From NCBI RefSeq assembly GCF_021228795.1, contig NZ_CP089309.1:2728001-2792000 (forward strand): a stretch of DNA of 64,000 nucleotides, read 5' to 3'. This DNA comes from Thiocapsa bogorovii. GTDB taxonomy: Bacteria > Pseudomonadota > Gammaproteobacteria > Chromatiales > Chromatiaceae. The position numbers and the translations under genes are program-made. Below, one piece after another: positions 13,014 through 41,069 of this stretch. The notes beneath the pieces are model-generated. The model was not told the DNA's origin and did no database searches. It saw nothing but the letters and a program-made list of their open reading frames with translations. Numbering within the stretch: the first letter of the stretch is position 1; every line of letters begins with the position of its first letter.

Positions 13014-13628
13014 ATGGTCGATGCAACACCCCTGCGCGTCGGTGTCGGCGGTCCCGTCGGCTCCGGCAAGACAGCCCTGCTGGATGCGCTTTGCAAGGCG
13101 CTGCGAGACCGCTACCAGTTGGCGGTGGTCACTAACGACATCTATACGCGCGAAGACGCCGAGTTCCTGATCCGTTCGCAAGCCCTGCCGGTCGAGCGCA
13201 TCGTCGGCGTGGAAACCGGCGGCTGTCCGCATACCGCCATTCGCGAGGACGCATCGATGAACCTGGCAGCGGTGGAGGATCTGCAGATCCGCTTCCCGGA
13301 TCTCGATCTCGTCTTCATCGAGAGCGGCGGCGATAACCTCGCCGCGACCTTCAGCCCGGAGCTCGCGGATCTGACCATCTATGTGATCGACGTCGCCGAG
13401 GGCGAGAAGATCCCGCGCAAGGGTGGGCCCGGCATCACCCGCTCGGACCTCCTCGTCATCAACAAGATCGATCTGGCGCCCTACGTAGGCGCATCGCTGG
13501 AGGTTATGGAGCGCGACTCCAAACGCATGCGCGGCGAGCGGCCGTTCGTCTTCACGAATCTGCGCACCGGCGAGGGACTTGAGCGGGTTCTCGACTTCAT
13601 CGAGCATCAAGGGATGCTCGGGGCTTAA
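13014..13628 (+). CDS. ureG: Urease accessory GTPase UreG
   Basis: 204 residues. SIMIBI-class GTPase with P-loop GPVGSGKT (residues 13-20), the Cys-Pro-His metal motif in [15 protein letters not shown] (about 65-79), [16 protein letters not shown] and the NKID guanine-specificity motif. GTP hydrolysis drives Ni transfer into urease. Start ATG follows AAGGAGA. The TAA stop (13626-13628) is embedded in the left end of the repeat element described at 13625-13711. Confidence 0.97.
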
Positions 13629-13711
13629 ACCGCGCCCGGCGCAATGTGCGATATTTTTGGATGGGATCAGCCCCGGCGGACTTTGCAACCGCTGGAGTCG
13701 GCGCGGTTTAA
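13625..13711 (+). repeat. TAAACCGCG-bounded element, copy A (overlaps the ureG stop)
   Basis: About 87 bases beginning TTAAACCGCG (13625-13634) and ending CGCGGTTTAA (13702-13711), so the ends are inverted. The left end contains the ureG stop codon. A further half-site TTTTAAACCGC follows at 13731. Similar elements lie at the 3' ends of yaiI, thiG and hypA; see findings. Confidence 0.7.
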
Positions 13712-13822
13712 GATATTAAAAAATACATTGTTTTAAACCGCATCATTCTACGGGCTGTCGACGCGCCATGGGTTAGGTTGACGTCCGAGAAGAAGCATTT
13801 CGACTGCGCATGCCCGGAAGAA

Positions 13823-13840
13823 GGGCGAATTCACTCGCCC
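13823..13840 (-). terminator. Probable terminator for moaE
   Basis: On the minus strand GGGCGA and TCGCCC (13835-13840 and 13823-13828) form a short stem directly after the moaE stop, followed by TTCTTCC. The stem is short, so confidence is limited. Confidence 0.45.
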
Positions 13841-14311
13841 CTACGGATCGGTGGATCCCTCCGCCCAGCGCCGTGCCGCTTCATCGTCCGTCACGCGTGC
13901 ATCGACCCACCGTTCGCCCTGCGCGGTTTGCTCCTTCTTCCAAAAGGGCGCGCGGGTCTTGAGGTAGTCGATCAGAAACTCGCAGGCACGAAAGGCCTCG
14001 CCGCGGTGCCGACTGCTGACACCCACGAACACGATCGGATCCTGCGGCCTCAGTTCGCCGACCCGATGCAGGATGCTGATGTCCTCAAGATCCCAGCGTT
14101 GCGCGGCCTCCTCGGCGATCGCGCCGAGTGCCTTCTCGGTCATCCCCGGATAGTGCTCCAGGGTCATGGCGGCCACCTCGACACCTTCGTTGATGTCGCG
14201 CATCAAGCCGACAAAGGTGACCACGGCGCCGACCTGCGGCTTGCCGCGGGAGAGAATTTTTTGCTCCTCCGCAATGTCGAACAGATCGCGTTGAACTCGA
14301 ATGCGTTGCAT
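13841..14311 (-). CDS. moaE: Molybdopterin synthase catalytic (large) subunit MoaE
   Basis: 156 residues. MoaE transfers sulfur from MoaD thiocarboxylate to precursor Z (cPMP) to build the molybdopterin dithiolene. Visible family motifs are GAVVTFVGLMRD, LEHYPGMTEK, IVFVGVSSRHRGEAF and LKTRAPFWKKE, the last with the catalytic lysines. Length is normal. It is alone here; moaD is not adjacent. Confidence 0.95.
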   Translation of the reverse strand: MQRIRVQRDLFDIAEEQKILSRGKPQVGAVVTFVGLMRDINEGVEVAAMTLEHYPGMTEKALGAIAEEAAQRWDLEDISILHRVGELRPQDPIVFVGVSSRHRGEAFRACEFLIDYLKTRAPFWKKEQTAQGERWVDARVTDDEAARRWAEGSTDP

Positions 14312-14547
14312 GTCCGGTTTCTCCGACGCTGGTCACCGGGGCTCGTCCGCGGCCTTAACGGTCCACTCGGCAGGGGTATCCGCGGGATTCTATACTTCTG
14401 AAGGCAAACGTTTGGCCCGGACCCTCACCGGTTTTTGCTCCGGGTGGGGCGTCGCCCCCGCGGAGGAAACTGCTCAGCGGCGAATCATGCTTGATAGCGT
14501 CATCCGAGTCCCTGTTTCGGTCGACCATCCACCAAGAGGAAACGACG

Positions 14548-14973
14548 ATGAACTGGAAAGAACAACTCGACAAAGCGGTTGCTGCGGTGAAAGAGGCCGC
14601 TACCAGCGAGAACGCACGGGATATCGCGGGGAGGGCAAAATCGGCGGCCATCGGTCTGGTCGACAAGGTCAAGACCGGCGCGGTCGATGCCGCCGATGCC
14701 TTCGTCGAGGCCAATCGTGATCCCTCCGCGCTTTCGGTGCGCTTCCTGAACGCCGACCTGACCGTGCTCTCGCCCGCGGAGGGCATCTCGATCACCAGAC
14801 CGGATGCGGCCACCCTTGTGGTCGACGATGGTACGGGGAATGGCCTTGTCATCAACGCGGGGGCCGATCCCGCCTATGTTGCCGAGACCATTGGAACCGT
14901 CGCCAGGCTGAGCGGCAATACCTTCGACTTGGGTCAGGAAGACGGTATCAACGTCGTCGTGACCAAATTCTGA
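14548..14973 (+). CDS. Conserved-looking protein of unknown function
   Basis: 141 residues from the ATG at 14548, preceded by AAGAGGAAAC. Residues 1-60 are predicted amphipathic helix rich in Ala/Lys (EQLDKAVAAVKEAA, GRAKSAAIGLVDKVKTGAVDAADAF), resembling apolipoprotein-like or coiled membrane-associated segments. The second half is beta-rich, with ADLTVLSP and TLVVDDGTGNGLVIN. No signal peptide. I do not recognise a family. A perfect stem-loop follows the stop. Confidence 0.65.
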   Translation: MNWKEQLDKAVAAVKEAATSENARDIAGRAKSAAIGLVDKVKTGAVDAADAFVEANRDPSALSVRFLNADLTVLSPAEGISITRPDAATLVVDDGTGNGLVINAGADPAYVAETIGTVARLSGNTFDLGQEDGINVVVTKF

Positions 14974-14983
14974 TCGGTCCGAG

Positions 14984-15009
14984 TCGCGAGGCGCCGAAGC
15001 GCCTCGCGA
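14984..15009. terminator. Stem-loop after the 14548 gene
   Basis: TCGCGAGGCGC (14984-14994) and GCGCCTCGCGA (14999-15009) form an 11-bp perfect stem with loop CGAA, 10 bases after a stop codon. No strong T-run follows. Confidence 0.6.
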
Positions 15010-15022
15010 TGATCATTCAACG

Positions 15023-15277
15023 ATGCCTCCGCTCATCTCGCGAATCGCCGGGTGGCCCCGCCGTGTCATCCACTGGCTCTGTAGCGGGCGAGCCGACTAC
15101 GCCGCCTTCCAGAGGCGCAAATCGACACGGGCCCACCGCGCACGACGCACGCTCTGTCTGTTTGTCTGGAGCGGTGCCGCCATCTTGATGCTGCTTTGCC
15201 CGAGCCCGGGCTGTATCGCGACCTTCATCCTGATCGCGACGTTCGTGAGCTTCTCGCTCTTGGACGAACATGCTTAA
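15023..15277 (+). CDS. Small membrane protein, unknown
   Basis: 84 residues. A basic N-terminal half (RRKSTRAHRARRTLCL) precedes a hydrophobic C-terminal half of one or two helices (about 46-80). The composition is typical of small inner-membrane proteins, but there is no recognised domain. It converges on the NnrU-like gene, with 7 bases between the stops. It could be spurious. Confidence 0.4.
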   Translation: MPPLISRIAGWPRRVIHWLCSGRADYAAFQRRKSTRAHRARRTLCLFVWSGAAILMLLCPSPGCIATFILIATFVSFSLLDEHA

Positions 15278-15284
15278 TCCTCGG

Positions 15285-15857
15285 TTACCCGATCGGTGCC
15301 ACGCCCATCAGGACCTTGTGCAGCCAGAACATGAAGAGGAAATAGAGCCCGATGCCGCCGATGATCGCAATCGCGTCGTTCACCTGGTTGGGAGGCGCGC
15401 CGTAGACGGTCGGGGTTGTGCGGCGCTTCAGCGAGATCCGGTCGGCGACCGCCCAGGCGAGGAAGGTTCCGAACAACAGGACGTCGGGGAGCGTTCCGTT
15501 GGCCAGCAGATGGGCCGTCGCCCAGATCTTCACCGCGAGCAACATCGGATGCTTGGTCGCGGACTGGATCCGACCGGGAAGATAGGCAGCCAACAGCAGC
15601 GGAAAGACCGGCACCATCAACAACAGGCTGATATGCCGCATCCAGACCGGCGGTTCGTAAACGATGACGGGCGACAGGCGAGCGGCCCCGTATCCAGAAA
15701 CGATCAAATAAAACCCGATCAGGGCCATGAGCCCATAGACGGCTTTCCATGGGATCTCGCCGAATCGCGCGACCAGGTCGGTCCGCCACTGACTGTTGAT
15801 GATGGACACCGAATGAATCCCGAGAAACAGGATCAAACCGAGGACGAGTACTGCCAT
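15285..15857 (-). CDS. NnrU family membrane protein
   Basis: 190 residues from the ATG at 15857, preceded on the minus strand by GGAGGAATCCTCGG. The start is also supported because the upstream extension is non-hydrophobic and Arg-rich. Five to six membrane helices carry NnrU-family features: LILFLGIHS at the N-terminus, YGLMALIGFYLIVSGYG, HPMLLAVKIWATAHLLANG and the LKRRTTPTVYG cytosolic loop. NnrU proteins were named from denitrification clusters and are related to isoprenylcysteine methyltransferase-like membrane enzymes; the true role is unsettled. Confidence 0.85.
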   Translation of the reverse strand: MAVLVLGLILFLGIHSVSIINSQWRTDLVARFGEIPWKAVYGLMALIGFYLIVSGYGAARLSPVIVYEPPVWMRHISLLLMVPVFPLLLAAYLPGRIQSATKHPMLLAVKIWATAHLLANGTLPDVLLFGTFLAWAVADRISLKRRTTPTVYGAPPNQVNDAIAIIGGIGLYFLFMFWLHKVLMGVAPIG

Positions 15858-16021
15858 CCGAGGATTCCTCCAAGACCATTGAAAAATCGGATTCCCTAAA
15901 CAACGTCCGACGCGACCTGCGACGTTGTCGCGAGGATTCCGCCTCGCGCCGGCGCAGTTTGAGCTGCGCTGCCGGACGCGATCGTGCGAGACAGTTCCTC
16001 CGAATTTTGAAAAAACCATCT

Positions 16022-16102
16022 CAACCGCGTCTTGCAGTCATCGTGGATCGCGACAAGCTCCATCCCGCTTGCGGCCGTGCGGATCACGCCGAACGCGGTT
16101 TC
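16022..16102 (-). repeat. TAAACCGCG-type element, copy D (degenerate, overlaps the 3' end of yaiI)
   Basis: On the minus strand it starts AAACCGCGTT (16101 downwards), inside the last codons of the yaiI-like gene, and ends GACGCGGTTGAG near 16022. Spacing of the inverted ends matches the other copies, and the sequence near its left end (CGTTCGGCG) resembles copy A. Three or four end positions differ from the consensus. Confidence 0.5.
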
Positions 16103-16542
16103 GATCTGGCAAGAAACGCATCCAAGGCGTTCGCGAACGCCTGCCGATCGCGCGGCCCGAAGGCGGGCGGCCCGCCGATGTTGATACCGCTGCCGCGCAG
16201 GGTGTCCATGAAGTCGCGCATCGTCAATCGCTCGCGGATATTGTCCTTGGTATAGAGCTCGCCGCGGGGATTTAGGGCTTGGCCGCCCCCGTCGATGACC
16301 TCCGCCGCGAGCGGGATGTCCGCGGTGACGACCAGGTCACCGGGGTTGAGTCGCTTCAGGATCTCGTTGTCGGCCACGTCGAACCCGGCGGAGACGCGCA
16401 CGGAACCCACCAAGGGCGAGGGCGGCGTGCTCACCGGCCCGTTCGCCACCAGCGTGACCTGAACGCCGAGCCGTTCCGAGGCGCGAAAGAGGATCTCCTT
16501 CACGGCATTCGGACAGGCGTCGGCGTCGACCCAGATCTCCAC
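16084..16542 (-). CDS. YaiI/YqxD family protein (UPF0178, DUF188)
   Basis: 152 residues. The family's hallmark N-terminus [19 protein letters not shown] is present, followed by [41 protein letters not shown] and the [13 protein letters not shown] end. The fold is a PIN-like putative nuclease domain; no biochemical role is established. The last codons (SKPRSA) lie inside a repeat element, so its natural C-terminus may have been replaced by that insertion. Its start is 14 bases from the end of glgB on the same strand, so the two could be co-transcribed. Confidence 0.9.
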
Positions 16543-16556
16543 CTGTCTCGGTCCCG

Positions 16557-18842
16557 CTAGCTCGCCTCCGCCGCAACAGGTGACGCCGCCGGCAGGTCGT
16601 CGGCATCGGCGATCGAGCCGTCGGCCTCGCTTTCGATCGCGTCGTCGGGCGCGGGCTCGTGCACCAGAATTAGCCCGGCGAGCGGAGGCAAGGCGATCGG
16701 GATGGAGTAAGGGCGTCCCATCCAGCTCACCGGCTCGGCCTCGACACCGCCCTGGTTACCGACATTGCTGCCGCCGTAGAGCTCCGCGTCCGAGTTCAGT
16801 GCCTCGCGATAGAAGCCGGGCTCGGGTACACCGATGCGATAGTTGGTGCGCGGTACGGGAGTGAAGTTGAATGCGGCAGCCACGATCTGCTTGCCGGAAA
16901 GGTCCTTGCGCAGATAACTGAGCACGGACTGCGAGCTGTCGTGACAATCGATCCACTCGAACCCGGAGCTGTCGAAGTCGACCTCATACAGCGCGGGTTG
17001 CTCCCGGTAGAGCCGGTTGAGGTCCGCAACGATCTGCTTGATGCCTTCGTGCTGCGGACGCTCGAGCAGATCCCAGTCCATCGCCTCGTCGAAGTCCCAT
17101 TCGGCACCGTGTGCGAACTCGCAGCCCTGGAAGAGCAACTTCTTGCCCGGGTAGCTGAACATAAAGGTGTAGAGAAGTCGCAGGCTGGCGAATTTCTGCC
17201 AGGCATCACCAGGCATCTTGTCCAGCATGGACTTCTTTCCGTGCACGACCTCGTCGTGCGAGAAGGGGAGCACGAAGTTTTCAGTGAAAGCATAGAGAAG
17301 GCCGAACGTCAGCAGGTCGTGATGATAGTGACGATAGATCGGATCCTTCTGCATATAGGACAGGGTGTCGTGCATCCAACCCATATTCCATTTCATGCTG
17401 AAGCCGAGACCGCCGAGATAGGTCGGACGCGAGACCGCAGGCCACGCGGTCGACTCTTCTGCGATCATCAGGGTGCCGGGGTGCTGCTCATGAGTCACGG
17501 TATTGAGTTGGCGGATGAAATCCACGGCTTCGAGATTCTCGTTGCCGCCGTATTTGTTCGGGATCCATTCACCGGCATTGCGCGAATAGTCCAGATATAG
17601 CATGGAAGCGACGGCGTCCACGCGCAACCCGTCGAGATGGAACTCGTCGAGCCAATAGAGCGCACTCGACAGCAGAAAGTTCTTCACCTCGTTGCGGCCG
17701 AAATTGAAGATCAGGGTTCCCCAATCCTTGTGTTCACCCATCCGCGGATCGGCATGCTCGTAAAGGGCTGTACCGTCGAAACGCGCCAGGGCATAAGCGT
17801 CCTTCGGGAAATGCGCGGGCACCCAGTCCAGCAGCACGCCGATGCCCCGACGGTGCAGGTAATCGACGAAGAAGCGGAAGTCGTCCGGCGAGCCGAAACG
17901 GGCACTCGGCGCGAAATAACCGGTGCATTGATAACCCCAAGAGGCATCCAAGGGGTGTTCCGTAATGGGAAGAAGCTCGATATGGGTAAAGCCCAACTCG
18001 GTCACATAATCGGCGAGCTGCTTAGCAAGAACCCGGTAGTTGAGAAACTCTCCATTCGCCCCTCGCTGCCATGATCCGAGATGGACCTCGTAAACGGAAA
18101 AGGGCCGATGCTGCCAATCCGATTCCGCGCGAGCCGCCAGCCAACCCTGATCGGCCCAACGGAACCGGCTTTCCGGACAGATGAAACCGGCAGTCTGCGG
18201 GCGCTCCTGAAAGGCCTGTGCGTAGGGGTCGATCTTGACGTGGATGTTGGTCGCGCGATCGCGGATCTCGTACTTGTAGAAACCGCCTTGCCCGATCCCG
18301 GGGATGAACAACTCCCAAACGCCGGTTCCGCCTCGCACCCGCATCGGGTGGGCGCGCCCGTCCCACTGGTTGAAATCTCCGACGACGCTTACGCGCTCGG
18401 CACTCGGCGCCCAGACCGCGAACTGCACGCCCGATACGCCGTCGACATCGGTCAGGTGCGAGCCCAAAAACCGATAGGCATGCCAGTGACGCCCCTCGCC
18501 GAAGAGGTGGAGGTCGAAATCCGGGAGCTGGGGAGGAAAGCAGTAAGGATCGTGATGGACGTGATGTTCACCGGCGGCATCGACCCAGTCGATGCGATAA
18601 CGCTCGGGAACCTTGGACGCCGAGCCTTCCCAAAGGAATAAATCCGTTCCCTCGATCCGCGCGAAGGGCTCGGATGCCTCGACCAAGGTGACCGATTCGG
18701 CGCCCGGCAGGAACGCGCGGACCACTGCCCGATCGCCCTCGAGGTGCCGGCCGAGGACCTCGAACGGGTCGTGGTGACGCGCCTCGATGATGCGCTGCAA
18801 GGGTTCCGGAACCTTGGGGACTTGCTGTGTCGCGGTTGCCAT
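16557..18842 (-). CDS. glgB: 1,4-alpha-glucan branching enzyme GlgB
   Basis: 761 residues from the ATG at 18842 (AAGGA upstream). N-terminal branching-enzyme domain with HHDPFEVLG, then a CBM48 domain (about 120-215, [18 protein letters not shown]) and the GH13 barrel. Catalytic regions visible are [13 protein letters not shown] (nucleophile Asp), MIAEESTAW (acid/base Glu) and [14 protein letters not shown] (third acidic residue). GlgB forms alpha-1,6 branches in glycogen. The C-terminus has an acidic tail of about 30 residues ([15 protein letters not shown]...) beyond the usual end. Divergent from glgC. Confidence 0.96.
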
Positions 18843-19114
18843 TCTGAAGTATTTCCTTCGCTGTCGGCTCTCGATGTCGCCTCTGATCGGCGCTGTCACG
18901 GAAACCGTTCGATATCGCGGCGCCACGCCCTGGATCTGCGGGTCGGCAGCAGGTGGGCGGACAGGTTCGGGGGTCTCGTCGGGATCGACGGCCCGAGGCG
19001 CGGCGAGGGGATCACCCGACCGCAGGGCAGTGTGCCGACGCTTCGTACCGTCTTGATGTTAACATAAGGGGGACTACTCTTAATGCCCTCGTCTAGACGA
19101 CAACAGGAGGACCT
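18843..19114. promoter_or_regulatory. Divergent glgB/glgC control region
   Basis: 272 bases separating the divergent glycogen genes. It must hold both promoters. An AT-rich patch TTGATGTTAACATAAG near 19052-19067 stands out in otherwise GC-rich sequence and is a candidate promoter core for glgC; the assignment is by inspection only. AGGAGG sits 8 bases before the glgC ATG. Confidence 0.4.
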
Positions 19115-20386
19115 ATGCCCCAAACGAATCCCCGGTTCGTCAGCCGCCTGACTCGAAATACCCTGGCGCTGATCCTGGCCGGGGGACGGGGCTCTCGCCT
19201 GATGCACCTGACGGCGTGGAGATCCAAGCCAGCCGTGCCTTTCGGCGGAAAGTTCCGCATCGTGGATTTCCCGCTTTCAAACTGCATCAATTCGGGAATT
19301 CGGCGCATCGGCGTCTTGACGCAATACAAGGCGCATTCACTGATTCTGCATATCCAGAAAGGATGGGGGTTTTTGCGCGGCGAATTCGGCGAATTCGTGG
19401 AATTATGGCCTGCCCAACAACGCGTTGCGGAGACCGCCTGGTATGCGGGAACAGCGGACGCGGTATTCCAGAACCTCGATATCATTCGCGATCACAATCC
19501 GGACTATATCCTCGTGCTTGCCGGCGATCACATCTACAAGATGGATTACGGCGCCATGATCGCCTATCACGTCGAATCCGGCGCCGATATGACGGTCGGC
19601 TGCCTCGAGATGGATACCGATCGCGCCGCCGAGTTCGGAGTCATGTCGGTCGACACCGAGGGGCGAGTGCTGCAATTTGCCGAGAAACCGAAGGAGCCCG
19701 AATCCATCCCCGGATCGCCCGGCAAGAGCCTCGTTTCGATGGGCATCTATGTGTTCAATCGCGGCTTCCTATTCGAGCAGCTGATCAGGGATGCCGACAC
19801 ACCACGCTCGTCGCACGACTTCGGGAAGGACATCATTCCCGCCGTGATCAAACACTATCGCGTCATGGCCCATACCTTTCGCGACCCACGCAGCGGAGAG
19901 CAGGCCTATTGGCGGGACGTGGGTACACTCGACGCCTTTTGGGAGGCAAACCTCGAGCTGATCGGCGTCACGCCGCCCTTGAGCCTCTACGACAAGAGCT
20001 GGCCGATCTGGACCTATCAGGAGCAACTGCCGCCGGCGAAGTTCGTGTTCGACGACGAAGATCGACGCGGAATGGCGGTCGACTCCATGGTCTCGGGCGG
20101 CTGCATCATCTCCGGTTCTACGGTTCGACATTCGTTGTTGTTCTCGAACGTGCGCGTGAACTCCTACGCCTACGTGAAGGATTCGGTGATCCTGCCGGAT
20201 GTCGTGATCGGCCGAAACTGCACGATCCGCAACGCCGTGATCGATCGCTATTGCCAGATCGACGAGGGAACCGTGATCGGACTCGACCAGGAAGCGGATC
20301 GTAAAGCGGGCTTCTACGTCAGCGAGGGCGGTGTCACCCTCGTCACCCCCGAGATGCTCGGGCAAGACGCCAACCACGTTCGTTGA
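19115..20386 (+). CDS. glgC: Glucose-1-phosphate adenylyltransferase GlgC
   Basis: 423 residues. Makes ADP-glucose, the committed step of bacterial glycogen synthesis. The N-terminal nucleotidyltransferase domain has [13 protein letters not shown] (about 13-25), [31 protein letters not shown] and [12 protein letters not shown]; the C-terminal left-handed helix domain has [17 protein letters not shown] and [15 protein letters not shown] perfect AGGAGG precedes the ATG. thiS begins 13 bases after the stop, so thiamin genes are transcribed behind a glycogen gene. Confidence 0.97.
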
Positions 20387-20399
20387 GGGGCTCGTGCGA

Positions 20400-20600
20400 A
20401 TGCAGATCATCCTAAACGGTGCCGCCACCGAGGTGGCCGACGCCATCACCATGGCCGAGCTGATCGAGCAACTCGAGCTCGGCACCCGCCGCCTGGCCGT
20501 CGAGGTCAACGCCGAGCTGGTGCCGCGCAGCCGCTTTCCCGACCACAGGCTCGCACCGCACGATCAGGTCGAGATCATCCACGCCGTCGGTGGCGGATGA
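20400..20600 (+). CDS. thiS: Sulfur carrier protein ThiS
   Basis: 66 residues from the ATG at 20400 (GAGGGG upstream). Ubiquitin-like fold, with the family features MQIILNG, LAVEVNAELVPRS and the C-terminal HAVGGG, whose terminal Gly-Gly is adenylated and thiocarboxylated. It donates sulfur to ThiG for the thiamin thiazole ring. thiG follows after 65 bases. Normal length. Confidence 0.93.
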   Translation: MQIILNGAATEVADAITMAELIEQLELGTRRLAVEVNAELVPRSRFPDHRLAPHDQVEIIHAVGGG

Positions 20601-20665: not shown

Positions 20666-21469
20666 ATGCCCACCGAGACCGCCGCAACCGATCGCTTGAC
20701 CCTTGCCGGACGCGACTACAGCTCCCGCCTCCTCGTCGGAACGGGAAAATACAAAGACATGGCCGAGACCGCACGGGCCATCGAGGCGAGCGGCGCCGAG
20801 ATCGTCACGGTCGCGGTGCGGCGTACCAACCTCGGCCAGACCCCCGGCGAACCGAACATCCTCGATATCCTGCCGCCCGAGCGCTACACCATCCTGCCCA
20901 ATACCGCAGGCTGCTACGATGTCGAGACCGCCGTGCGCACCTGCCGGCTGGCGCGCGAGCTTCTCGACGGGCATAACCTGGTCAAGCTCGAGGTCCTCGG
21001 CGACGAGAAGACCCTCTTCCCGGATGTGATCGCCACGCTCAAGGCGGCCGAGGAATTGGTCAAGGACGGCTTCCAGGTCATGGTCTACACGAACGACGAC
21101 CCCATCGTCGCCCGGCAGCTCGAGGAGATCGGCTGCATCGCCGTCATGCCCCTCGCAGCACCGATCGGCTCGGGGCTCGGCATCCGCAACCCGCTCAACA
21201 TCCGCACCATCGTCGAGAACGCCGGTGTTCCGATCTTGGTCGATGCGGGTGTCGGCACCGCGTCCGATGCGGCCGTGGCGATGGAGCTCGGCTGCGACGG
21301 CGTACTGATGAACACCGCGATCGCGGCGGCACGCGATCCCGTCCTGATGGCCAGTGCCATGCGCAAGGGGATCGAGGCCGGACGCGAGGCATTCCTCGCC
21401 GGGCGCATGGCGCCGAAGCGGTTCGCCTCGGCCTCGTCGCCGATCGAAGGGCTGTTCTTCCAGAACTAA
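20666..21469 (+). CDS. thiG: Thiazole synthase ThiG
   Basis: 267 residues from the ATG at 20666; a TTG five codons upstream is possible. TIM-barrel enzyme that condenses DXP, dehydroglycine and ThiS thiocarboxylate. Visible motifs: [48 protein letters not shown] with the Schiff-base Lys, [16 protein letters not shown] and [20 protein letters not shown]. The TAA stop is the left end of repeat copy B. Confidence 0.96.
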
Positions 21470-21551
21470 ACCGCGTTTCAAGCAGAATCAGGCGGTCGTT
21501 GTGGGACGGCCGTCCGGTGCAAGGAATGGGGTTCGTGCCGGACGCGGTTTA
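21467..21551 (+). repeat. TAAACCGCG-bounded element, copy B (overlaps the thiG stop)
   Basis: 85 bases from TAAACCGCG (21467-21475) to CGCGGTTTA (21543-21551), a 9-bp perfect inverted pair. The first three bases are the thiG stop codon. The interior differs from the other copies. Confidence 0.75.
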
Positions 21552-30480: not shown

Positions 30481-32168
30481 CCTAAAAAGAGCAGTTAAAC
30501 CTTGCCTCGAGTGATCCAAGCGGCTGAAATATCGGCGCAAGGAGGTCCCGATGAGCAATCCGATCCCTCACCCGCAGGGTGAACCCGAAACCACTGCGCT
30601 GGTGCCGCATGCCGGCCCGGTTGCGGTGGACACCTTTGGCGGCCGCGTCCACGTCGAGTGGGATGCGCAGGCGGCGGTCACCCCGCTGGGGCAGCTGCCG
30701 TTCTTCACCGAGTTTCTGCGCCTGGGCGGGCGCTTCGATGCCTGGGTCGAGAGCTGCCCGCTGAAGCTGACCAGCCCGAACGCCCCGAGCACGCGCGACG
30801 TGCTCGGTACCGCCATCCTGGCGGTGCTGTCCGGGCATCAGCGCTATGCCCACATCAGTGCCCTGCGCGGCGACACCATCAACGCCGCCCTGCTGGGCAT
30901 GGAGGCGGTGGTCAGCGAGGACTCGGTGCGCCGCAACCTCGGCAAGCTCGATGAAGCCGACGGGGTGGCCTGGTTGCAGAACCATCTGGACGCCTGCGTG
31001 GCCCCGGTGCCGGGCGTGCCCTGGATTCTCGATACCGACGTGACGGTCAAGCCGCTCTACGGACATCAAAAGGGTGCGCTCAAGGGCCACAACCCGCACA
31101 AGCCGGGTCGGCCCTCGCACACCTACCACACCTATTTCGTCGCCGGTCTGCGTCTGATCCTGGACGTGGAGGTGCTGGCCGGCAATCAAACCGCGTCGAA
31201 ATACAGCGCGCCGGGGCTGTGGGAGTTGCTCGCGCGCCTGCCGCGGGCGCACTGGCCGCTGTGCATTCGCGGCGACCGCGATTGGGGCACCCAAGCCAAC
31301 ATGGCACGGGCCGAGCAGGAGGGGATCCCCTATCTGTTCAAGCTGCGCATGACCTCCAAGGTCAAACACACCGTCGAGCGCCTGATGCGCGACGCCGAGT
31401 GGCGCGATGCCGGTCAAGGCTGGCAGGGGGCCGAGACGACCCTGCGTCTGTCGGGCTGGAGCCGTGCCCGGCGCGCCGTCGTGCTGCGCCGGCGCATCAA
31501 GGCCGACCTGGCCGTCGTCGAGCAGGGTGATCCCGAGCAGCTGCGCCTGAGCTTCGCCGAGTTCACCGACCAGACGATCCTCTACGAGTACGCCGTGCTG
31601 GTGACCTCGCTGCCCCATGAGATCCTGAGCGTGGCGCAACTCTATCGCGATCGCGCCGACGCGGAGAATCCCTTCGACGAGCTCAAGAACCATTGGGGCT
31701 GGGGCGGCTTCACCACCCGCGACATCAAGCGCTGCCGCTTCATGGCGCGCATCACCGCCTTGACCTACAACTGGTGGAGCCTGTTCGTGCGCCTGGCCGA
31801 CCCGACTCGGCACACCGAGGCGATCACCAGCCGCCCGCTGCTGCTCAGCGCACCGGCACGACTGACCCGTCACGGCGGGCAGAGGCGCCTGACCATCAGC
31901 CATCCCCATGCCGAAGCCGGGTGGGTGGAGGCGACCTGCCGCGAGATCGCGGCCTTCTTCAACACCCCGCGCCGAACTGCGGAGCAGTTGAGTCCCCTGC
32001 AACGCTGGTACCGGATGCTCTCGCGTGCGCTGGTGAAGTACCTCAACGGCCGCCAATTGCAGCCGCCGGCGGTGTTACCGGCGCCGGCGTAGCCGCCGAA
32101 CCGCCGGTATGTGTACTCGCCCGCGGGCCGAAAACGCTCCGCGACGGGCGCTAACTGCTCTTTTTAGG
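30481..32168 (+). mobile_element. IS1380-like insertion sequence, copy 1
   Basis: 1688 bp with perfect 17-bp inverted ends, CCTAAAAAGAGCAGTTA at 30481-30497 and its complement at 32152-32168. Both sides are flanked by TTGAC (30476-30480 and 32169-32173), a 5-bp target duplication. It carries one full-length transposase. A second copy of identical length lies at 58175-59862 in the opposite orientation. Confidence 0.92.
30551..32092 (+). CDS. IS1380-like DDE transposase (copy 1)
   Basis: 513 residues, with an AAGGAGG just upstream of the ATG. RNase H-type DDE transposase: the first catalytic Asp in WILDTDVTVKPLYGHQ, a second in CIRGDRDWGTQ, and the YRDRADAENPFDELKNHWGWGG block with the catalytic Glu, typical of the IS4/IS1380 superfamily. 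The gene is uninterrupted. It differs from the copy at 58251-59792 by only about 15 residues, so both may be active. Confidence 0.88.
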   Translation: MSNPIPHPQGEPETTALVPHAGPVAVDTFGGRVHVEWDAQAAVTPLGQLPFFTEFLRLGGRFDAWVESCPLKLTSPNAPSTRDVLGTAILAVLSGHQRYAHISALRGDTINAALLGMEAVVSEDSVRRNLGKLDEADGVAWLQNHLDACVAPVPGVPWILDTDVTVKPLYGHQKGALKGHNPHKPGRPSHTYHTYFVAGLRLILDVEVLAGNQTASKYSAPGLWELLARLPRAHWPLCIRGDRDWGTQANMARAEQEGIPYLFKLRMTSKVKHTVERLMRDAEWRDAGQGWQGAETTLRLSGWSRARRAVVLRRRIKADLAVVEQGDPEQLRLSFAEFTDQTILYEYAVLVTSLPHEILSVAQLYRDRADAENPFDELKNHWGWGGFTTRDIKRCRFMARITALTYNWWSLFVRLADPTRHTEAITSRPLLLSAPARLTRHGGQRRLTISHPHAEAGWVEATCREIAAFFNTPRRTAEQLSPLQRWYRMLSRALVKYLNGRQLQPPAVLPAPA

Positions 32169-32367
32169 TTGACTTTCACGGTAGACTCGCTGCGTCTTCA
32201 CGCTCGGCTGACGTGGTCCGGTCCATGGCCTCGGCTTCCCCCGCAACGTGTGCGAGGAATATAGCACAACCCTCATGTGCAGCTAGCGATGCGCCGAGAG
32301 CTTCGCAGGATCTCGGGAACCCCTGCGCTCCCTGCTCCTCGAACCGCTCTTGGATCCATGACAAGCC

Positions 32368-33057
32368 ATGTCCGTGCCCATGCCCTACCTTATCGTTCTG
32401 CTGCTTCTCACCGCCTCCTCTTGGGTCTTCGCCGAGACCCCGGCGGTCGACCCGGAGATCAACGCCTACTACCGAGATGCCGATTACGCCCGCTGGAAGA
32501 GCATCTTCGAGAGCCCCGGTCGGGAGGTCTTCGATCGACGGGGCGAGATCCTCAAGGTGCTGGAGATCCGACCGGGCATGCGGATCGCCGATGTCGGGGC
32601 CGGAACAGGGCTCTATACGATGCTCTTTGCCGAGGGCGTCGAACCGAGCGGGAAGGTCTATGCCGTGGATATCTCGAAGAGTTTCCTGGAGGCGATCGGG
32701 CAGCGTGCCCAAGAGGCGGGTCTCGACACTGTCATCACGGTGCTGAACGAACAGACGAGCACGGAACTGCCGCCCGGGAGCGTGGATTTAGTGTTCATGG
32801 CCGACACCTATCATCACTTCGAGTACCCGCGGGCCATGCTCGACTCGATCCGCGCGGCACTGATGCCCGGCGGAATACTGGCGATCATCGATTTCAGACG
32901 CGAGCCGGGGGTCAGCAATCGCTGGATCCTCGGGCACGTGAGGGCAGGGCGGGAGGAGGTGATTCGGGAGGTCGAGCAGGCCGGTTTCAAGCTGATCGAC
33001 GAGCCGATCAGGCTGCGCGAGAACTATTTCGTGCGTTTTCGAAAGATTGACGCCTGA
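32368..33057 (+). CDS. SAM-dependent methyltransferase with a signal peptide
   Basis: 229 residues. Residues 1-22 form a signal peptide (YLIVLLLLTASSWVFAE), followed by DPEINAYYRDADYARWKSIFESPGREVFDRRGEIL and a class I methyltransferase core: MRIADVGAGTGLYTMLFA (motif I), GKVYAVDIS, DLVFMADTYHHFEYP and MPGGILAIIDFRR. The C-terminus (EVEQAGFKLIDEPIRLRENYFVRFRK) is intact. A methyltransferase directed to the periplasm is odd because SAM is cytosolic; the protein may stay as an anchored enzyme or bind another ligand. The IS1380-like element ends about 200 bases upstream. Confidence 0.82.
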   Translation: MSVPMPYLIVLLLLTASSWVFAETPAVDPEINAYYRDADYARWKSIFESPGREVFDRRGEILKVLEIRPGMRIADVGAGTGLYTMLFAEGVEPSGKVYAVDISKSFLEAIGQRAQEAGLDTVITVLNEQTSTELPPGSVDLVFMADTYHHFEYPRAMLDSIRAALMPGGILAIIDFRREPGVSNRWILGHVRAGREEVIREVEQAGFKLIDEPIRLRENYFVRFRKIDA

Positions 33058-33179
33058 CGGCCTTCACCTGTCCGATTCCACACTCTCTGCAACTTCAGAT
33101 GCTTCAATAGGGGATAGCGGTGAGCGGGTCACCCCGAGACTGGCGCCGACCTTCACCCGATCGCACCACGGAGGTATCC

Positions 33180-33821
33180 ATGAAGACGACGATGCGTAGA
33201 TCCATCCTGGCACTGACGGTCGCGGCGGCCTTCGCCGCACCCTTGGCCGTCGCCCAGCAACCCCCGCCGCCGCGCGGCCCGATGACCTTCTCGGCGTTCG
33301 ATCTCGACGGAGACGGGATCGTAATCGAGCAGGAGTTCGACACCGCGCGGGCTCAACGCATGGCCGAGCGTGCGGCGCAGGGTGCGCCGATGCGCGGGGC
33401 GGCCAACGCGCCGGCGTTCTCGGACTTTGACCTGAACGGGGACGGACAGATGACAACGGAGGAATTCGCAACGGTTCAGCAATCCCGCATGCAGGGGCGG
33501 CCCGGCGGGGGTATGGGACCGGGCGGCGGTATGGGACCTGGCGCAGGGATGGGGATGGGACCCGGCGCGGGCATGGGGCGCAACATGCCGTCCTTCGCCG
33601 AATTCGACTTGAACAGCGACGGCGCGTTGACGGAGCAGGAGTTTTACGAGGCGCGGGCCAATCGCATCGCGGAGCGCTCGCAGCAGGGCTATCCGATGCG
33701 AAACCTCGCGAACGCGCCGTCATTCGAGGTGATCGATCTGAACGGCGACGGGCAAATCACACCCGATGAGTTCTCGGCCGGTCAGGCGCAGCATCGCCAA
33801 CAGGGTATGCGGACGCCCTGA
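33180..33821 (+). CDS. Secreted EF-hand calcium-binding protein
   Basis: 213 residues from the ATG at 33180, preceded by GGAGG. Signal peptide about 1-27 (LTVAAAFAAPLAVAQ). Four EF-hand loops are visible: DLDGDGIVIEQE, DLNGDGQMTTEE, DLNSDGALTEQE and DLNGDGQITPDE, arranged as two pairs separated by a Gly/Met/Pro-rich linker with repeated GGGMGPG units (about 122-150). Each loop keeps the acidic residues at positions 1, 3, 5 and 12. Likely a periplasmic Ca2+-binding protein; partner unknown. Confidence 0.88.
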   Translation: MKTTMRRSILALTVAAAFAAPLAVAQQPPPPRGPMTFSAFDLDGDGIVIEQEFDTARAQRMAERAAQGAPMRGAANAPAFSDFDLNGDGQMTTEEFATVQQSRMQGRPGGGMGPGGGMGPGAGMGMGPGAGMGRNMPSFAEFDLNSDGALTEQEFYEARANRIAERSQQGYPMRNLANAPSFEVIDLNGDGQITPDEFSAGQAQHRQQGMRTP

Positions 33822-33839
33822 GTCGGGATCGGATCGCCC

Positions 33840-35096
33840 TCAATATCGGTCGGGGAAGAGTCCGGGCATCCAGCGGGGTGCGAGGGCGGCGGGGAATGCC
33901 AGTTTCAGGGGCGCGCGGGTGCTTTCTGAAGCGAGGACCCCACGGTCCAGCAGCGCCGCGGTGACCCGGCGCGCCTGGCGGTTTCCGACGCCGAGGAGGC
34001 CCGCGACATCGCCGCGGGATAGCGCGCCTCGGTAGAGGACGGATTCCAACAGGGTCCCGGAATGTGCGGGCAGGCGTTCGGCACGCATCTCGTCTTCCGC
34101 CCAAGCCCGGATGCGTTGCCGAAGTCGCTCCGGCTGAACCAAGCCCTCCATGAAATCGACCTGGTCGATGCAGATCCGCAGGAAGAAGGCGGTAAAGTCG
34201 ACGAGGGCTTCCTCGCTGAGATGTCCGCGCCCGTCGAGATCGTTGCGGCGCGGACGATTGCAGTTGGCGAGCAGTGACGTGTAGGTGGTTTCGTTGCGGG
34301 CCAACCCACGGGCAACGGACCTGAGACCGCCGGTCTCCAGGGTTCGGCGCAGAACGGCGTAGGACATCAGGCGTGCAACCCGACCGTTCCCGTCCAGGAA
34401 CGGGTGTATCCACAAGAGTCTATGGTGCGCCGTCGCTGCGGCCAGGATGGCGCCCGTCGTTCCCCGGTTGGCGTAGGTGTCCTCGAACCGGGCGAGGAAG
34501 CGGGGAACGGCGCCCGGACTCACGGCGATATGGCGGCCGACACGTACGTCCCGAGTGCGCAACGCGCCCGGCACGACCCGCATGCGTGCCTTGGTCTCGG
34601 GCTCAATGACCCAAAGGAGCTCATCCGGAAGCCGCTCGCCGAAACGCTTGCTCAGCTCGCACAACCCGGCGACCGTGAAGGCACGATCATCGAGCCCGCC
34701 CGCGTCGATCCATGCCTGCACGGCGATATGGGCTTGCGCTTCGAGCTGAAGGTTGCTTTTCTCCGGATCGCCGCTGTAGTCGCCCTTGAGCGCGCGCTCG
34801 ATGTCGACCGGATGGGTGTCGTGCCCCTCGATCAGGTTGCTGTAGTAGCAGTTCATCGACCGCACCAGATCGGCCAACGCGCTGACGATGCCGGACGGTA
34901 GGCTCCGTCGCAGGCCTGCCGACTTCGCTGCCAGCTCGATGGCCAGGTCGGTCAAAGCGGCGCGTTGCCTCGCACCTTCGCCGATGAGAAGGGGCTCCAT
35001 CAGCGCAACGGATTCCCGGCGGTCTACGGCCGGCTCCGCGTCGGCCCTCATGTCCGCTGGGATGTCCGCTTTCCGTTCCGGTGGCTTGACTGTCAT
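33840..35096 (-). CDS. Fic family protein (probable AMPylase) with its own inhibitory motif
   Basis: 418 residues. The Fic core motif HPFLDGNGRVAR (about 231-242) carries catalytic His, acidic residue and anion-binding GNGR. Upstream, YYSNLIEGH (about 84-92) is the N-terminal [ST]xxxE[GN] inhibitory helix of class II Fic proteins, whose Glu blocks productive ATP binding. A C-terminal winged-helix-like region (LSRGDVAGLLGVGNRQARRVTAALL) is typical of the Fic/DUF4172-type architecture. It transfers AMP to a protein Ser/Thr/Tyr; target unknown. No antitoxin gene is adjacent, consistent with self-inhibition. Confidence 0.9.
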   Translation of the reverse strand: MTVKPPERKADIPADMRADAEPAVDRRESVALMEPLLIGEGARQRAALTDLAIELAAKSAGLRRSLPSGIVSALADLVRSMNCYYSNLIEGHDTHPVDIERALKGDYSGDPEKSNLQLEAQAHIAVQAWIDAGGLDDRAFTVAGLCELSKRFGERLPDELLWVIEPETKARMRVVPGALRTRDVRVGRHIAVSPGAVPRFLARFEDTYANRGTTGAILAAATAHHRLLWIHPFLDGNGRVARLMSYAVLRRTLETGGLRSVARGLARNETTYTSLLANCNRPRRNDLDGRGHLSEEALVDFTAFFLRICIDQVDFMEGLVQPERLRQRIRAWAEDEMRAERLPAHSGTLLESVLYRGALSRGDVAGLLGVGNRQARRVTAALLDRGVLASESTRAPLKLAFPAALAPRWMPGLFPDRY

Positions 35097-35207
35097 TTCA
35101 TCATCTTATCATTGGGTTGAGGCGTCTCGTACGGTCCTCGTGACGTCGGCAGCGTCCGGTTTGAAGGCCGCATCCGGGAGAACAGACCGCTGTACAACCC
35201 CGGAGGC

Positions 35208-36287
35208 TTATCGCCCGGACCACTCCTCGAGGATGGCGACGATGTGCGGGATGGCTTCCGGCTCCGGGTCGCTCGGGAACAGGCGCGCGAGCATCCCGCG
35301 ATGCGAGGCGCGCACGAGGAGAGGCGGGGGCGCGCCCGGGAACCGCAGCGAGGGGAGAGGGACGACACCGTCGCCAAGGCCCTCGCCGAGGCTCGACCAC
35401 CAGTCTTCGAGCACCTCTGCGATATCGGGGGCGACATCGCGGGCGAGATCGGTCGATCCCAACTCGGCGGGGATGGCTTCAAGACTGGCGACCATCAACT
35501 CGGGCGGCTCGGTCAGTAAACCGCCGATCAGACGAACAGGGATGGACTCGGGCCAGGGCCGCGCGTTCAGATCGTCCAGAAAGGCGCTGCCGGGGCGCAG
35601 GTCGATCTTGGCCTCGCCGGTGCCGTCGCGCAGCCCGGCGAAGAGCGAAAAGCGCCGCTCCGGACCGGCGGCCAGATGGTCGCGCAGCTCCAGCCAGATC
35701 CGCAGACGCGCCCACTCCGAGCCCTGGTTGGGTGTGCCGACCAGGATGACGCCGCGCACGGCGGCACCCTCGACCCGTGCGGGGGCGCCGACCGGGCTGC
35801 GCCAGCGGGTAACGAAATCGCGGATGATCAGACCGCCCATGCTGTGCCCGATCAAGACGACCGGACGATCCGAGGGAAGCTCGGGCCAATGCGCGGCGAG
35901 GAGATCTGTACTGCGGTCGACACCTTGGTCGTTGGGATAGCGGAACTCCCAGACCTCGAAACCGTTCGCGCCGAGCACGGGGATGAGGTCGTCCCAGATG
36001 TCGCCCGGCTCGTCGAGTCCGTGGACAAGCAGGATCCGGGGCGGGACGGGCTCCGACCCGTCCTGGATGACCTGGATGCGCGGAATGAGACCATGCCAGC
36101 CGTCCACCGGCGCCATCGCCTGCGGAAACCAGGCATCGAGCCGGTCATGGACGAGCACCCGTAGACGCCGCTCCTCGCGCGGATGCCCCTCGGCCCACCA
36201 GGTCCAGGCCGCGACCGCAAGCAGGAGAGCGATCGGGATCAGGAACAGCACCGAACGACGGCGGAACCGCACGGATTTCGCATTCAT
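35208..36287 (-). CDS. Membrane-anchored alpha/beta hydrolase (lipase/esterase-like)
   Basis: 359 residues. An N-terminal anchor or uncleaved signal (about 9-30, SVLFLIPIALLLAVAAWTWW) is followed by an alpha/beta hydrolase fold: ILLVHGLDEPGDIWDDL (oxyanion region), the nucleophile elbow VVLIGHSMGGLI (Ser near residue 148), then GVILVGTPNQGSEWA, and a likely catalytic His in VRASHRGML near the C-terminus. This resembles PGAP1/LipA-type lipases. Predicted periplasmic face; substrate unknown. Divergent from speA. Confidence 0.85.
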   Translation of the reverse strand: MNAKSVRFRRRSVLFLIPIALLLAVAAWTWWAEGHPREERRLRVLVHDRLDAWFPQAMAPVDGWHGLIPRIQVIQDGSEPVPPRILLVHGLDEPGDIWDDLIPVLGANGFEVWEFRYPNDQGVDRSTDLLAAHWPELPSDRPVVLIGHSMGGLIIRDFVTRWRSPVGAPARVEGAAVRGVILVGTPNQGSEWARLRIWLELRDHLAAGPERRFSLFAGLRDGTGEAKIDLRPGSAFLDDLNARPWPESIPVRLIGGLLTEPPELMVASLEAIPAELGSTDLARDVAPDIAEVLEDWWSSLGEGLGDGVVPLPSLRFPGAPPPLLVRASHRGMLARLFPSDPEPEAIPHIVAILEEWSGR

Positions 36288-36332
36288 GCCTTACCATCCT
36301 CCCATCGACATCGCTGCAAGAGACCCGTCGCA

Positions 36333-38213
36333 ATGGACCCAGATGTGAAGCGCTGCAATCAGATCTATGCCATCGACCGTTGGGGCGAGGGCTATTTCGG
36401 GATCAACCCCACGGGGCATCTCTATGCACGACCGGATCCAGACGGCGCGACCGAGGTCGATCTGGCCCTTTTGGCCGAGCAGCTCGACGCGGAGGGCCTG
36501 TCGCTGCCGGTGCTGGTGCGTTTCAACGATATCCTGCGCCATCGGGTGGAGTCGCTTCACCGTGCCTTCGTGGATGCGAGCGCGGCGCACGGCTACAGCG
36601 GGCGCTACCAACCCGTCTATCCGATCAAGGTCAACCAGCAGGCCGGCGTGGTGCGCGAGATCCTGCGCTCCGGTCATGCGGGTCTGGAGGCCGGCAGCAA
36701 GCCCGAGCTGATGGCGGTGCTGGCACTCTCGCCACCCGACGGTCTGGTGGTCTGCAACGGATACAAGGACCGCGAGTATATCCGGCTCGCCCTGATCGGG
36801 AGACGGCTCGGCCTGCGGGTGCAGATCGTGATCGAGAAGCCGTCCGAGGTGGGACTCATCCTCGAGGAGGCCGAACGGCTCGGTGTGGAGCCCCTGCTGG
36901 GCGTACGGGCGCGGCTCGCCGCCGCGGCGGCGGGGAACTGGCAGAGCAGCGGCGGGGAGAAGGCCAAGTTCGGGCTCTCGGCCAACCAGATCCTGGATCT
37001 GGTCCGCACGTTGGACTCCGCCGGGCGGCTGAATCGGCTCAATCTACTGCATGCCCACCTGGGCTCTCAGATCCCGAACCTTCAGGACATCCGCTCCGGT
37101 GTCGCCGAGCTGGTGCGCTTCTATGCCGAGCTGCGGCGGCTGGGCGCGCCGATCACCATCCTTGATGTCGGCGGCGGACTGGGTGTCGACTACGAGGGGA
37201 CCCGCACGCGCAACTACTGCTCGGTCAACTACAGCTTCGCGGGTTACGCGAGCGCGATCGTCGAGAGCGTCGCGGCCGAGTGCCGTCGTCGCGATCTGCC
37301 CGAGCCGGATCTGCTGAGTGAGTCGGGTCGTGCGCTCACCGCGCATCACGCCGTCTTGATGACCAACGTGATCGATCGCGAGGAGGCCGGCGGCCAAGGC
37401 GTGCGGCCCAAGTCCGACGAGGGGGATCCGCTGCTCGATGCACTGGCCGGACAGCTTCGCGCCGCGGACGAGGCGCCTCCCCAGGAGGTCTATTCGGAGG
37501 CGCGCGAGCTGATGGCGGCCGCACGCGAGCGGTTTGCGGCCGATCGACTCGACCTGACCGGACGGGCGCGCGCGGAGGAGCTTTTCTTCGCCATCTGCCG
37601 GCGCCTGGCCGGACGGCTGGATCCGGCGATCCGGCGCCACCGCGAGCTGGCGGACGAGGTCAACGCCCTGCTGGCCGACAAGCTCTTCTGCAACTTCTCC
37701 CTGTTCCAGTCGATGCCGGACGTCTGGGCGCTCGATCAGATCTTTCCGATCGTGCCGATCCAGCGTCTCGACGAGCTGCCGAGTGCGCGAGCGATGGTGC
37801 ATGATCTCACCTGCGACTCCGACGGCTGTATCGACCACTATGTCGACGAGGGTGGGGTGGAGGCGAGTCTCCCGGTGCATGCCGGCGCCGGGTCGGAGGC
37901 GCCCTATCTCATCGGTTTCTTCATGGTCGGCGCCTATCAGGAGATCCTCGGCGACATCCACAACCTCTTCGGCGACACGGATGCCGTGAACGTCGAGCTG
38001 GATGCGAGCGCACCGACCGGCTACCGTCTGCTCGACGCCGAGCGTGGCGACTCCACCGACGAGCTGCTGAGCTATGTCCACTTCGAGCCGCGCACCCTGC
38101 TCGCGCACTATCGACGCAAGCTGGACGCCGCCGGTCTGGACCGGGCGACCCGCGAGCACTTCTTCGTCGAGCTCAAGGCCGGGCTCTACGGCTATACCTA
38201 TCTGGGCAGCTGA
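36333..38213 (+). CDS. speA: Biosynthetic arginine decarboxylase SpeA
   Basis: 626 residues from the ATG at 36333; the frame is open upstream but that part overlaps the divergent hydrolase. PLP-dependent fold III enzyme converting arginine to agmatine for putrescine synthesis. Motifs: IDRWGEGYFGINPTG, PVYPIKVNQQ with the PLP Lys (about 99), LEAGSKPEL, GGEKAKFGLS, HLGSQIPN, ILDVGGGLGVDYEGT, LLSESGRALTAHHAVL and DLTCDSDGCID with the active-site Cys. A little shorter than E. coli SpeA. hypA starts 3 bases after the stop. Confidence 0.96.
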   Translation: MDPDVKRCNQIYAIDRWGEGYFGINPTGHLYARPDPDGATEVDLALLAEQLDAEGLSLPVLVRFNDILRHRVESLHRAFVDASAAHGYSGRYQPVYPIKVNQQAGVVREILRSGHAGLEAGSKPELMAVLALSPPDGLVVCNGYKDREYIRLALIGRRLGLRVQIVIEKPSEVGLILEEAERLGVEPLLGVRARLAAAAAGNWQSSGGEKAKFGLSANQILDLVRTLDSAGRLNRLNLLHAHLGSQIPNLQDIRSGVAELVRFYAELRRLGAPITILDVGGGLGVDYEGTRTRNYCSVNYSFAGYASAIVESVAAECRRRDLPEPDLLSESGRALTAHHAVLMTNVIDREEAGGQGVRPKSDEGDPLLDALAGQLRAADEAPPQEVYSEARELMAAARERFAADRLDLTGRARAEELFFAICRRLAGRLDPAIRRHRELADEVNALLADKLFCNFSLFQSMPDVWALDQIFPIVPIQRLDELPSARAMVHDLTCDSDGCIDHYVDEGGVEASLPVHAGAGSEAPYLIGFFMVGAYQEILGDIHNLFGDTDAVNVELDASAPTGYRLLDAERGDSTDELLSYVHFEPRTLLAHYRRKLDAAGLDRATREHFFVELKAGLYGYTYLGS

Positions 38214-38216
38214 GCC

Positions 38217-38567
38217 ATGCACGAGCTTTCCATCTGTCAGGCCCTGCTCGATCAGGTCGAGCGCATCGCCGCCGAGCACGGGGCGAGCGGGGTCGAGCGC
38301 ATCCTGCTGCGGGTCGGCCCGCTCTCAGGTGTCGAGGGGCCTTTGCTCCAGCACGCCTATCCGCTCGCCGCAGCAGGGACCATCGCGGAGAACGCGGAGC
38401 TATTGATCGAAACCGCACCCGTGCGGGTCGCCTGCAGCGACTGCGGCGCCGAGACGGACGCCACCCCGAACAGGCTCCTATGCGGGGCCTGCGGCAGCTA
38501 CAAGACGCGGCTGGTGAGCGGGGACGAGCTCCTGTTGGCGAATCTGGAGCTGACCATCCCGGACTAA
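38217..38567 (+). CDS. hypA: Hydrogenase nickel-insertion protein HypA
   Basis: 116 residues. The N-terminal MHE nickel-binding motif is present (MHELSICQALLDQ), and the zinc domain has two Cys pairs, CSDCG and CGACG. HypA delivers Ni to [NiFe]-hydrogenase large subunits with HypB, and in some bacteria also feeds urease. It follows speA by 3 bases, an unusual partner that suggests read-through expression. hypB lies 336 bases downstream, separated by repeat elements. Confidence 0.94.
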   Translation: MHELSICQALLDQVERIAAEHGASGVERILLRVGPLSGVEGPLLQHAYPLAAAGTIAENAELLIETAPVRVACSDCGAETDATPNRLLCGACGSYKTRLVSGDELLLANLELTIPD

Positions 38568-38570
38568 AGC

Positions 38571-38654
38571 TAAACCGCGTTCTGCGTTCATCCGGATCGT
38601 TCGGTGTGTATCTTGGCCTCGCACGCATCCAAAGCGCCGGCGCGACGCGGTTTA
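38571..38654 (+). repeat. TAAACCGCG-bounded element, copy C (after hypA)
   Basis: 84 bases from TAAACCGCG (38571-38579) to CGCGGTTTA (38646-38654), a perfect 9-bp inverted pair, starting 3 bases after the hypA stop. Confidence 0.75.
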
Positions 38655-41061: not shown

Positions 41062-41069
41062 ATGGTAGG

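Follow-up and report, generated by a model that had tools for sequence, protein, structure and literature searches.

A paired-hairpin repeat family of Thiocapsa and its placement at stop codons

The spread of short palindromic repeats and their accumulation at the 3' ends of genes pose an old question. We address it for a repeat with inverted, hairpin-forming ends that is carried by a 64,000-nt stretch of Thiocapsa bogorovii (contig NZ_CP089309.1, positions 2,728,001 to 2,792,000; hereafter, the window means this whole stretch). Several described systems offer comparisons. ERIC, RUP and Correia/Nemis are TA-flanked bacterial miniature inverted-repeat transposable elements (MITEs), which are short and non-autonomous, with inverted ends and many intergenic copies. 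Group II introns are found in stop codons, for example in groEL of Azotobacter, where the protein is left intact. Integron attC sites form hairpins directly past the stop codon, with conserved paired ends (core RYYYAAC / GTTRRRY) and a variable interior. The MIRU repeats of mycobacteria involve a stop/start overlap and a coupled open reading frame (ORF). Their insertion at start codons is reported in PMC12548453. The closest known kind, however, is the dimer of repetitive extragenic palindromes (REPs). According to PMC3733652, REP units measure 20–40 bp with loops of 2–20 bp, the termini of GTAG REPs often supply a TAG stop codon, and most REPs between convergent genes lie, in two species, at most 20 bp from both 3' ends. 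REPs located at most 15 nt from a stop codon can stall ribosomes, and such REPs make up 446 of 4072 predicted in E. coli (PMC12306157).

A preliminary description of the window, made from its sequence, had reported copies of the repeat after ureG, thiG and hypA and a degenerate one at yaiI. We recovered all of them: three perfect copies of the form TAAACCGCG-N66/67-CGCGGTTTA and the degenerate copy. In addition, we identified a partner hairpin after hypA (38676–38761), the recognizable beginning of a decayed partner (13734), the doublet form of the element and the covariation of its arms. The reading that we favor, and that we regard as fairly probable, is that of a non-autonomous, high-copy, dimeric element of REP/MITE-like type, inserted in a stop-directed manner and then subject to selection on its paired ends. 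The description had also known of no named family with this signature. Our literature searches found no paper on a Thiocapsa paired-hairpin family, and we claim no wider absence; the stop-supplying GTAG termini of REPs (PMC3733652) are nevertheless a precedent for one of its traits.

Structure, abundance and host range

The full unit is a doublet of ~193 bp that recurs between genomes and consists of two ~85-bp hairpins placed tail to tail around an AT-rich linker (22–23 bp in 29 of 51 doublets). In each hairpin, a 12-bp paired end (Y-TAAACCGCGYC) encloses a variable interior whose length is nearly constant (~61 nt), and nearly all copies measure 82–88 bp. Among 342 elements, a count that includes the sequences of relatives and one overlapping stretch, 79 belong to hairpin class A, 100 to class B and 163 to neither. 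The interiors of this last group are hardly more alike than shuffled sequences (0.547 vs 0.526), yet 130 of the 163 are 84–86 bp long. Many single hairpins are dimers in which one half was lost or has decayed. Numbering from the outer end, positions k=0 to 11 are paired in 194–265 of 270 elements and the positions just outside in only 79 and 65, figures that are inflated because the search admits symmetric ends more readily. The base preceding the motif (-1) is nearly always a pyrimidine with a purine partner, and the pair is C-G or T-A in 81 of 103 cases. Constraint is absent at -2 and further out; since base -1 is itself paired, there is no conserved unpaired tag.

The repeat extends well beyond the window. 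A search for its two ends across the complete genome (5.65 Mb, one contig) recovered 213 perfect-ended copies and none for a reversed control pattern. In 864 kb of this genome, 9-bp inverted pairs accumulate only at outer lengths of ~79–90 within the range examined (60–140), and for lengths of 81–89 we counted 40, 17 and 33 copies with zero, one and two changed bases, where the other spacings predict 0, 0.2 and 1.2. The contrast with the control and the peak in length exclude chance as the source of the repeat. Eight of 11 Thiocapsa genomes, including this one, are carriers with 121–588 copies each, and the other three have none. In a sample of 146 genomes of the family, 18 presented a match: five Thiocapsa, four genomes outside the genus (46–269 copies) and nine with one to three copies. 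A scan of named genomes yielded at least 120 stretches; among the 80 matches listed, 79 came from Thiocapsa, Thiobaca, Lamprocystis, Thiocystis or other Chromatiaceae and one from Laspinema. The flank of the Laspinema copy matches clpX genes, and we took it as a chance match. One of the related assemblies (G005; our handles are used where genomes must be told apart) measures 10.4 Mb over 40 contigs; contig 1 accounts for 5.07 Mb, and the remainder may be foreign. Three stretches of the genome of T. bogorovii (G000a 254421, 430786 and 572249) are identical over the 60 nt compared and probably represent one mobile gene that contains the 9-mer by chance.

The two arms of the hairpin covary. In the same 864 kb, 27 copies carry one change at each end, and the changes are complementary in 23 of them (nine kinds) and non-matching in four, against a chance rate of 1/27; this test is free of the search bias toward symmetric ends. 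Over all segments, 58 of 70 such copies match, with relatives counted repeatedly. Conserved ends and differing interiors had been noted for the window, and the same contrast was observed between species: in 43 same-site reference pairs (masked set, 20 shared loci, 75 sequences), stems diverged by 6.4% and interiors by 24%, the latter value being inflated, as some pairs probably bring together distinct elements that occupy one site. After thiG, the ends read TAA..TTA in the window and TGA..TCA in all five relatives, one of which has an additional change, and at a second shared locus two species present the TAA..TTA form and two the TGA..TCA form. The slower change of the 12-bp paired end relative to the interior, and its partial compensation, make a role of the hairpin or a cruciform at gene 3' ends probable; REPs close to stop codons suggest, by analogy, that it may lie in translation termination, mRNA stability or insulation.

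Placement at stop codons and orthologous sites

We assembled 220 clusters from seven segments of five genomes. Only two lie within a called gene, and 203 are faced by the 3' end of a gene. In 100 of the 203 clusters, the element opens with the stop codon of that gene; in 32, the stop precedes it by 1–12 nt, and in 71 it lies farther away. Uniform placement in the present gaps would put 8.7 clusters exactly on a stop codon. A preference for a short target motif does not account for this excess. Stops make up 14.6% of the YTAR tetramers that lie either at stops or in intergenic DNA (6.3% for TA), and the observed placement exceeds what either motif predicts; YTAR or TA as the only cause was therefore rejected. 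The stops given by elements are TAA in 82 cases, TGA in 25 and TAG in one, while those of all called genes are TGA in 1316, TAA in 354 and TAG in 312. In the 864 kb of T. bogorovii, a stop falls on 42 element ends for 104 elements. Exact placement was also found in other genera among the matches listed (79 named loci): 37/66 in Thiocapsa, 7/13 in Thiobaca, 4/4 in Thiocystis and 5/5 in other Chromatiaceae.

Convergent contexts are over-represented (58 of 174 clusters vs 235 of 1637 gene pairs), and eight clusters between convergent genes present a stop at both ends. The stops of element-free convergent pairs share one TA in 5 of 226 cases, a state from which a single insertion would yield stops at both ends.

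Using identity of the doublet to its class consensus as a rough proxy for age, we observed exact placement in 15/31 doublets with identity of at least 0.86, 3/6 between 0.80 and 0.86, 10/19 between 0.68 and 0.80 and 17/30 below 0.68. With the youngest doublets about as often exact as the oldest, exact placement is present early. When positions up to 12 nt past the stop are included, the oldest doublets reach 27/30 and the youngest 17/31 (Fisher p 0.004), which indicates that selection or decay adds to the placement.

Empty alleles, for which the preliminary description had proposed a comparison of orthologous loci, were found with about 2 bp between the flanks. In 22 of 36 comparisons, an element-free ortholog stops at that codon as well; collapsed to 12 loci, 11 have at least one element-free ortholog with this property, and the stops in these 11 loci are TGA (4), TAG (3) and TAA (4). 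At thiG, the agreement holds for the copy of G003, and thiG is two codons longer in the window and three others; the TAG of moaE is part of a different, GTAG-type palindrome in T. bogorovii and G003. Between the flanks of the empty alleles, three genomes have GA at 14044 of G003. Site 27475 shows TA, A or TGTA there, site 46120 TC (or 20 nt) and site 171320 CA, with a difference in the preceding base too; at 87231 of G005, the bases are TA, and the empty allele is probably a loss of the element. At site 213870, G004 and G005 read GAT TGA GCG and the others GAT TAA..TTA A GCG, so that here the element brings its own TA. At these few sites, the element thus carries its own TA at both ends and stands in place of about 2 bases. 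An additional 400 kb of G003 contained more clusters and no further clean empty site.

Finally, the doublets at ureG and at site 213870 of G000a are in opposite orientation between species. Their identities (0.736 twice at ureG, 0.658 and 0.637 at 213870) are no higher than those of random pairs (mean 0.761, 5–95% range 0.658–0.870), so these sequences point to repeated hits on one codon or to the replacement of one doublet by another. In-place inversion is not favored, given a likeness of only that of random pairs, and would have to be old and diverged.

Possible routes to gene 3' ends

Under the favored explanation, the tail-to-tail dimer of classes A and B would be moved in trans by an enzyme acting on the paired ends. 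Insertion would exchange about 2 bases, with the element supplying TA at both ends. Because the element begins with TAA on both strands, landing on the first two bases of TAA, TAG or TGA would leave the protein unchanged, and some coupling to translation or to mRNA ends would make true stops visible to the insertion. We infer that the stop placement reflects such directed insertion rather than very early selection. A bolder form of this idea, which we hold only tentatively and consider doubtful, is that insertion is aware of the reading frame: it would find true stops of all three kinds, TGA included, without a DNA motif being seen, target choice being linked to the termination of translation or to 3' ends of mRNAs under translation, and would replace about 2 bases so that the stop is regenerated, for both convergent genes where their stops overlap. 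The claim that this is a mobile or amplified element specific for gene ends, made when the window was first described, holds in part: empty sites, the exact placement of about half of the gene-end-facing clusters and unrelated doublets sharing sites across species speak for it.

Several observations weigh against our explanation. Seventy-one of the 203 clusters lie neither on a stop nor in the 12 nt past one, the only Lamprocystis locus among the matches listed is not exact (0/1), and the stop is elsewhere in 14 of the 36 comparisons with element-free orthologs. Clean empty sites are few and their dinucleotides vary (GA, TG, CA, TC, TA), so that any target rule is only provisional. The placement counts rely on gene calls by our own script and include old species-shared sites once per genome, and the contrast between stems and interiors is lessened by the inflation mentioned above. 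A mobilizing gene was not found at PF01797 loci or between orphan ends in 2.56 Mb, other transposase and recombinase families not having been searched. Likewise, no pair of the 45 orphan ends in these 2.56 Mb flanks a gene as a larger autonomous element would, a comparison that did not extend to two whole elements around a gene.

The same stem data could be read differently, as the mark of a 3'-UTR RNA hairpin or terminator: the element would insert anywhere between genes and the copies at stops would survive because the RNA hairpin is useful there. We find this unlikely. The conserved and partly compensated stems, the excess of convergent contexts and the closer association of the most diverged doublets with stops all agree with it, and conservation after insertion is the part of the earlier proposal of a conserved 3'-UTR RNA element that stands. 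However, exact placement is already seen in 15 of the 31 youngest doublets, and mismatches show no clear strand bias: we counted 51 GU and 52 CA at k=1–11 of 270 elements and, for tandem contexts, 49 GU and 36 CA relative to the transcript strand. This pattern makes DNA pairing no less likely than RNA pairing. The copies of the window fold only partly better than shuffled sequences (z -1.4 to -4.2), alignment folding gave little interior RNA structure beyond the end stem, and no Rfam 15 covariance model matched the window at its gathering score.

A TA-targeting MITE of the IS630/Tc1-like kind, whose stop bias would come solely from TA occurring in TAA and TAG and being rare elsewhere, appears improbable. 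It would explain the TA at both ends, the empty allele TA at two clean sites, the eight convergent clusters with stops at both ends and the shared TA of some element-free convergent pairs. But the YTAR and TA shares given above fall far short of 100/203, element-free orthologs end in TGA at 4 of 11 loci, further empty dinucleotides are GA, TC, CA and TG, and the TA itself is altered in TGAACC..GGTTCA copies. We consider it very improbable that the family is a REP/REPIN-type element moved by a RAYT (a Y1 tyrosine transposase) acting on single-stranded hairpins. The inverted hairpin dimer, the hundreds of copies, the 3'-end placement and the precedent of stop-supplying REP termini (PMC3733652) would fit this, as would the 14 PF01797 hits of T. 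bogorovii, except that non-carrier G001 also has 14 hits, the non-carriers G007 and G010 have four each and carriers have 6–19. Around 44 PF01797 loci (the 14 of T. bogorovii and the best 30 of eight other genomes; 10 of the 44 from non-carriers), we found only four element clusters, all more than 1.2 kb from the hit. The loop of ~61 nt also exceeds the 2–20 bp given for REPs (PMC3733652), and constraint ends at paired base -1, with no conserved unpaired tag. With PF01797 in carriers and non-carriers alike and no adjoining copies, RAYT was rejected as the mobilizer.

Placement on stop codons lets this element spread in a crowded genome without altering proteins. The family provides hundreds of natural insertions in several Thiocapsa species. 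It comprises old and young copies at an exact site, with orthologs both filled and empty, which allows targeting and selection to be separated by counting. If stops are indeed targeted by the mobilizing machinery, this would represent a new way for a mobile element to pick a safe site.

Copies in the window and comparison with known systems

As previously described, two copies provide a stop codon through their TAA. The class B hairpin after ureG (13626–13710, forward strand) begins with the ureG stop (13626–13628) and is followed by an AT-rich linker (13711–13733) and, at 13734, by the start TAAACCGCA of a decayed partner (linker and partner start together 13711–13742, forward strand); complete partner hairpins occupy this position in G004, G005 and G009. 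Downstream of ureG, G003 and G009 present runs of ACGACA-type tandem repeats in place of the right half of the doublet seen elsewhere. The hairpin at 21467–21551 (forward strand) likewise provides the stop of thiG with its first TAA. At hypA, the left hairpin of a doublet (38571–38654, forward strand) starts 3 nt past the stop, as had been noted; a 21-nt linker (38655–38675, forward strand) separates it from the right hairpin (38676–38761, reverse strand), which has compensated ends TAAAACGCG/CGCGTTTTA and recurs at this site in G002, G003 and G005. The window reads TAA AGC TAAACC at this stop, G002 reads TAAACC TAAACC, and G003 and G005 are without the extra 6 nt; by comparison of these sequences, the 3-nt offset probably arose when the first 6 bp of the repeat were duplicated in tandem. 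G009 carries ~16 kb of additional DNA (33753–49886 of its stretch) directly after hypA, where other species have the element.

The degenerate hairpin at 16021–16102 (reverse strand) does supply the last codons of yaiI, a reverse-strand gene that runs 19 nt into it, its stop codon now being within the hairpin (window 16084–16102). The right arm reads TTTC in the window, and TTTA is kept in G004, so that YaiI probably became a few codons longer when the element's own stop was lost. UreG, YaiI and MoaE, the latter encoded convergently to UreG, score above the NCBIfam and Pfam cut-offs; HypA is above the Pfam cut-off and slightly below that of NCBIfam, and ThiG was identified by Pfam. A separate palindrome, GGGCGAATTCACTCGCCCCTAC, lies at 13823–13844, and its GTAG end gives the TAG stop of moaE. 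In G005, the moaE stop is supplied at the same codon by a paired-hairpin doublet, and one stop codon is therefore used by two repeat families.

Compared with known systems, the Thiocapsa family is most similar to REP dimers, BIMEs and REPINs (GTAG, CGTC), which are also intergenic palindromes forming inverted dimers with spacers, in hundreds of copies, at 3' ends and in convergent gaps. It differs from REPs by its ~85-bp unit, in which a 12-bp stem closes a variable interior of ~61 nt, by the lack of an unpaired tag (GTAG, CGTC) and of a link to RAYT, and by the position of about half of its clusters exactly on the stop, as TAA or TGA. MIRU is also a mobile repeat whose insertion, at a codon boundary, hardly affects the gene, but it targets start codons and has a coupled ORF, whereas the Thiocapsa element is located at the stop codon and its inverted arms have no known ORF role. 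In comparison with TA-flanked MITEs, the empty sites found (TA at two, GA, TG, CA or TC at others) do not clearly bear out a fixed TA duplication, and the family has covarying ends and is dimeric. Group II introns are large ribozymes with few sites, in contrast to a 193-bp dimer with hundreds. Finally, the ends YTRAAC..GTTYAR differ from the attC core in that their third pair is nearly always R-Y instead of Y-R, and the Thiocapsa copies are dispersed rather than arranged in cassette arrays.

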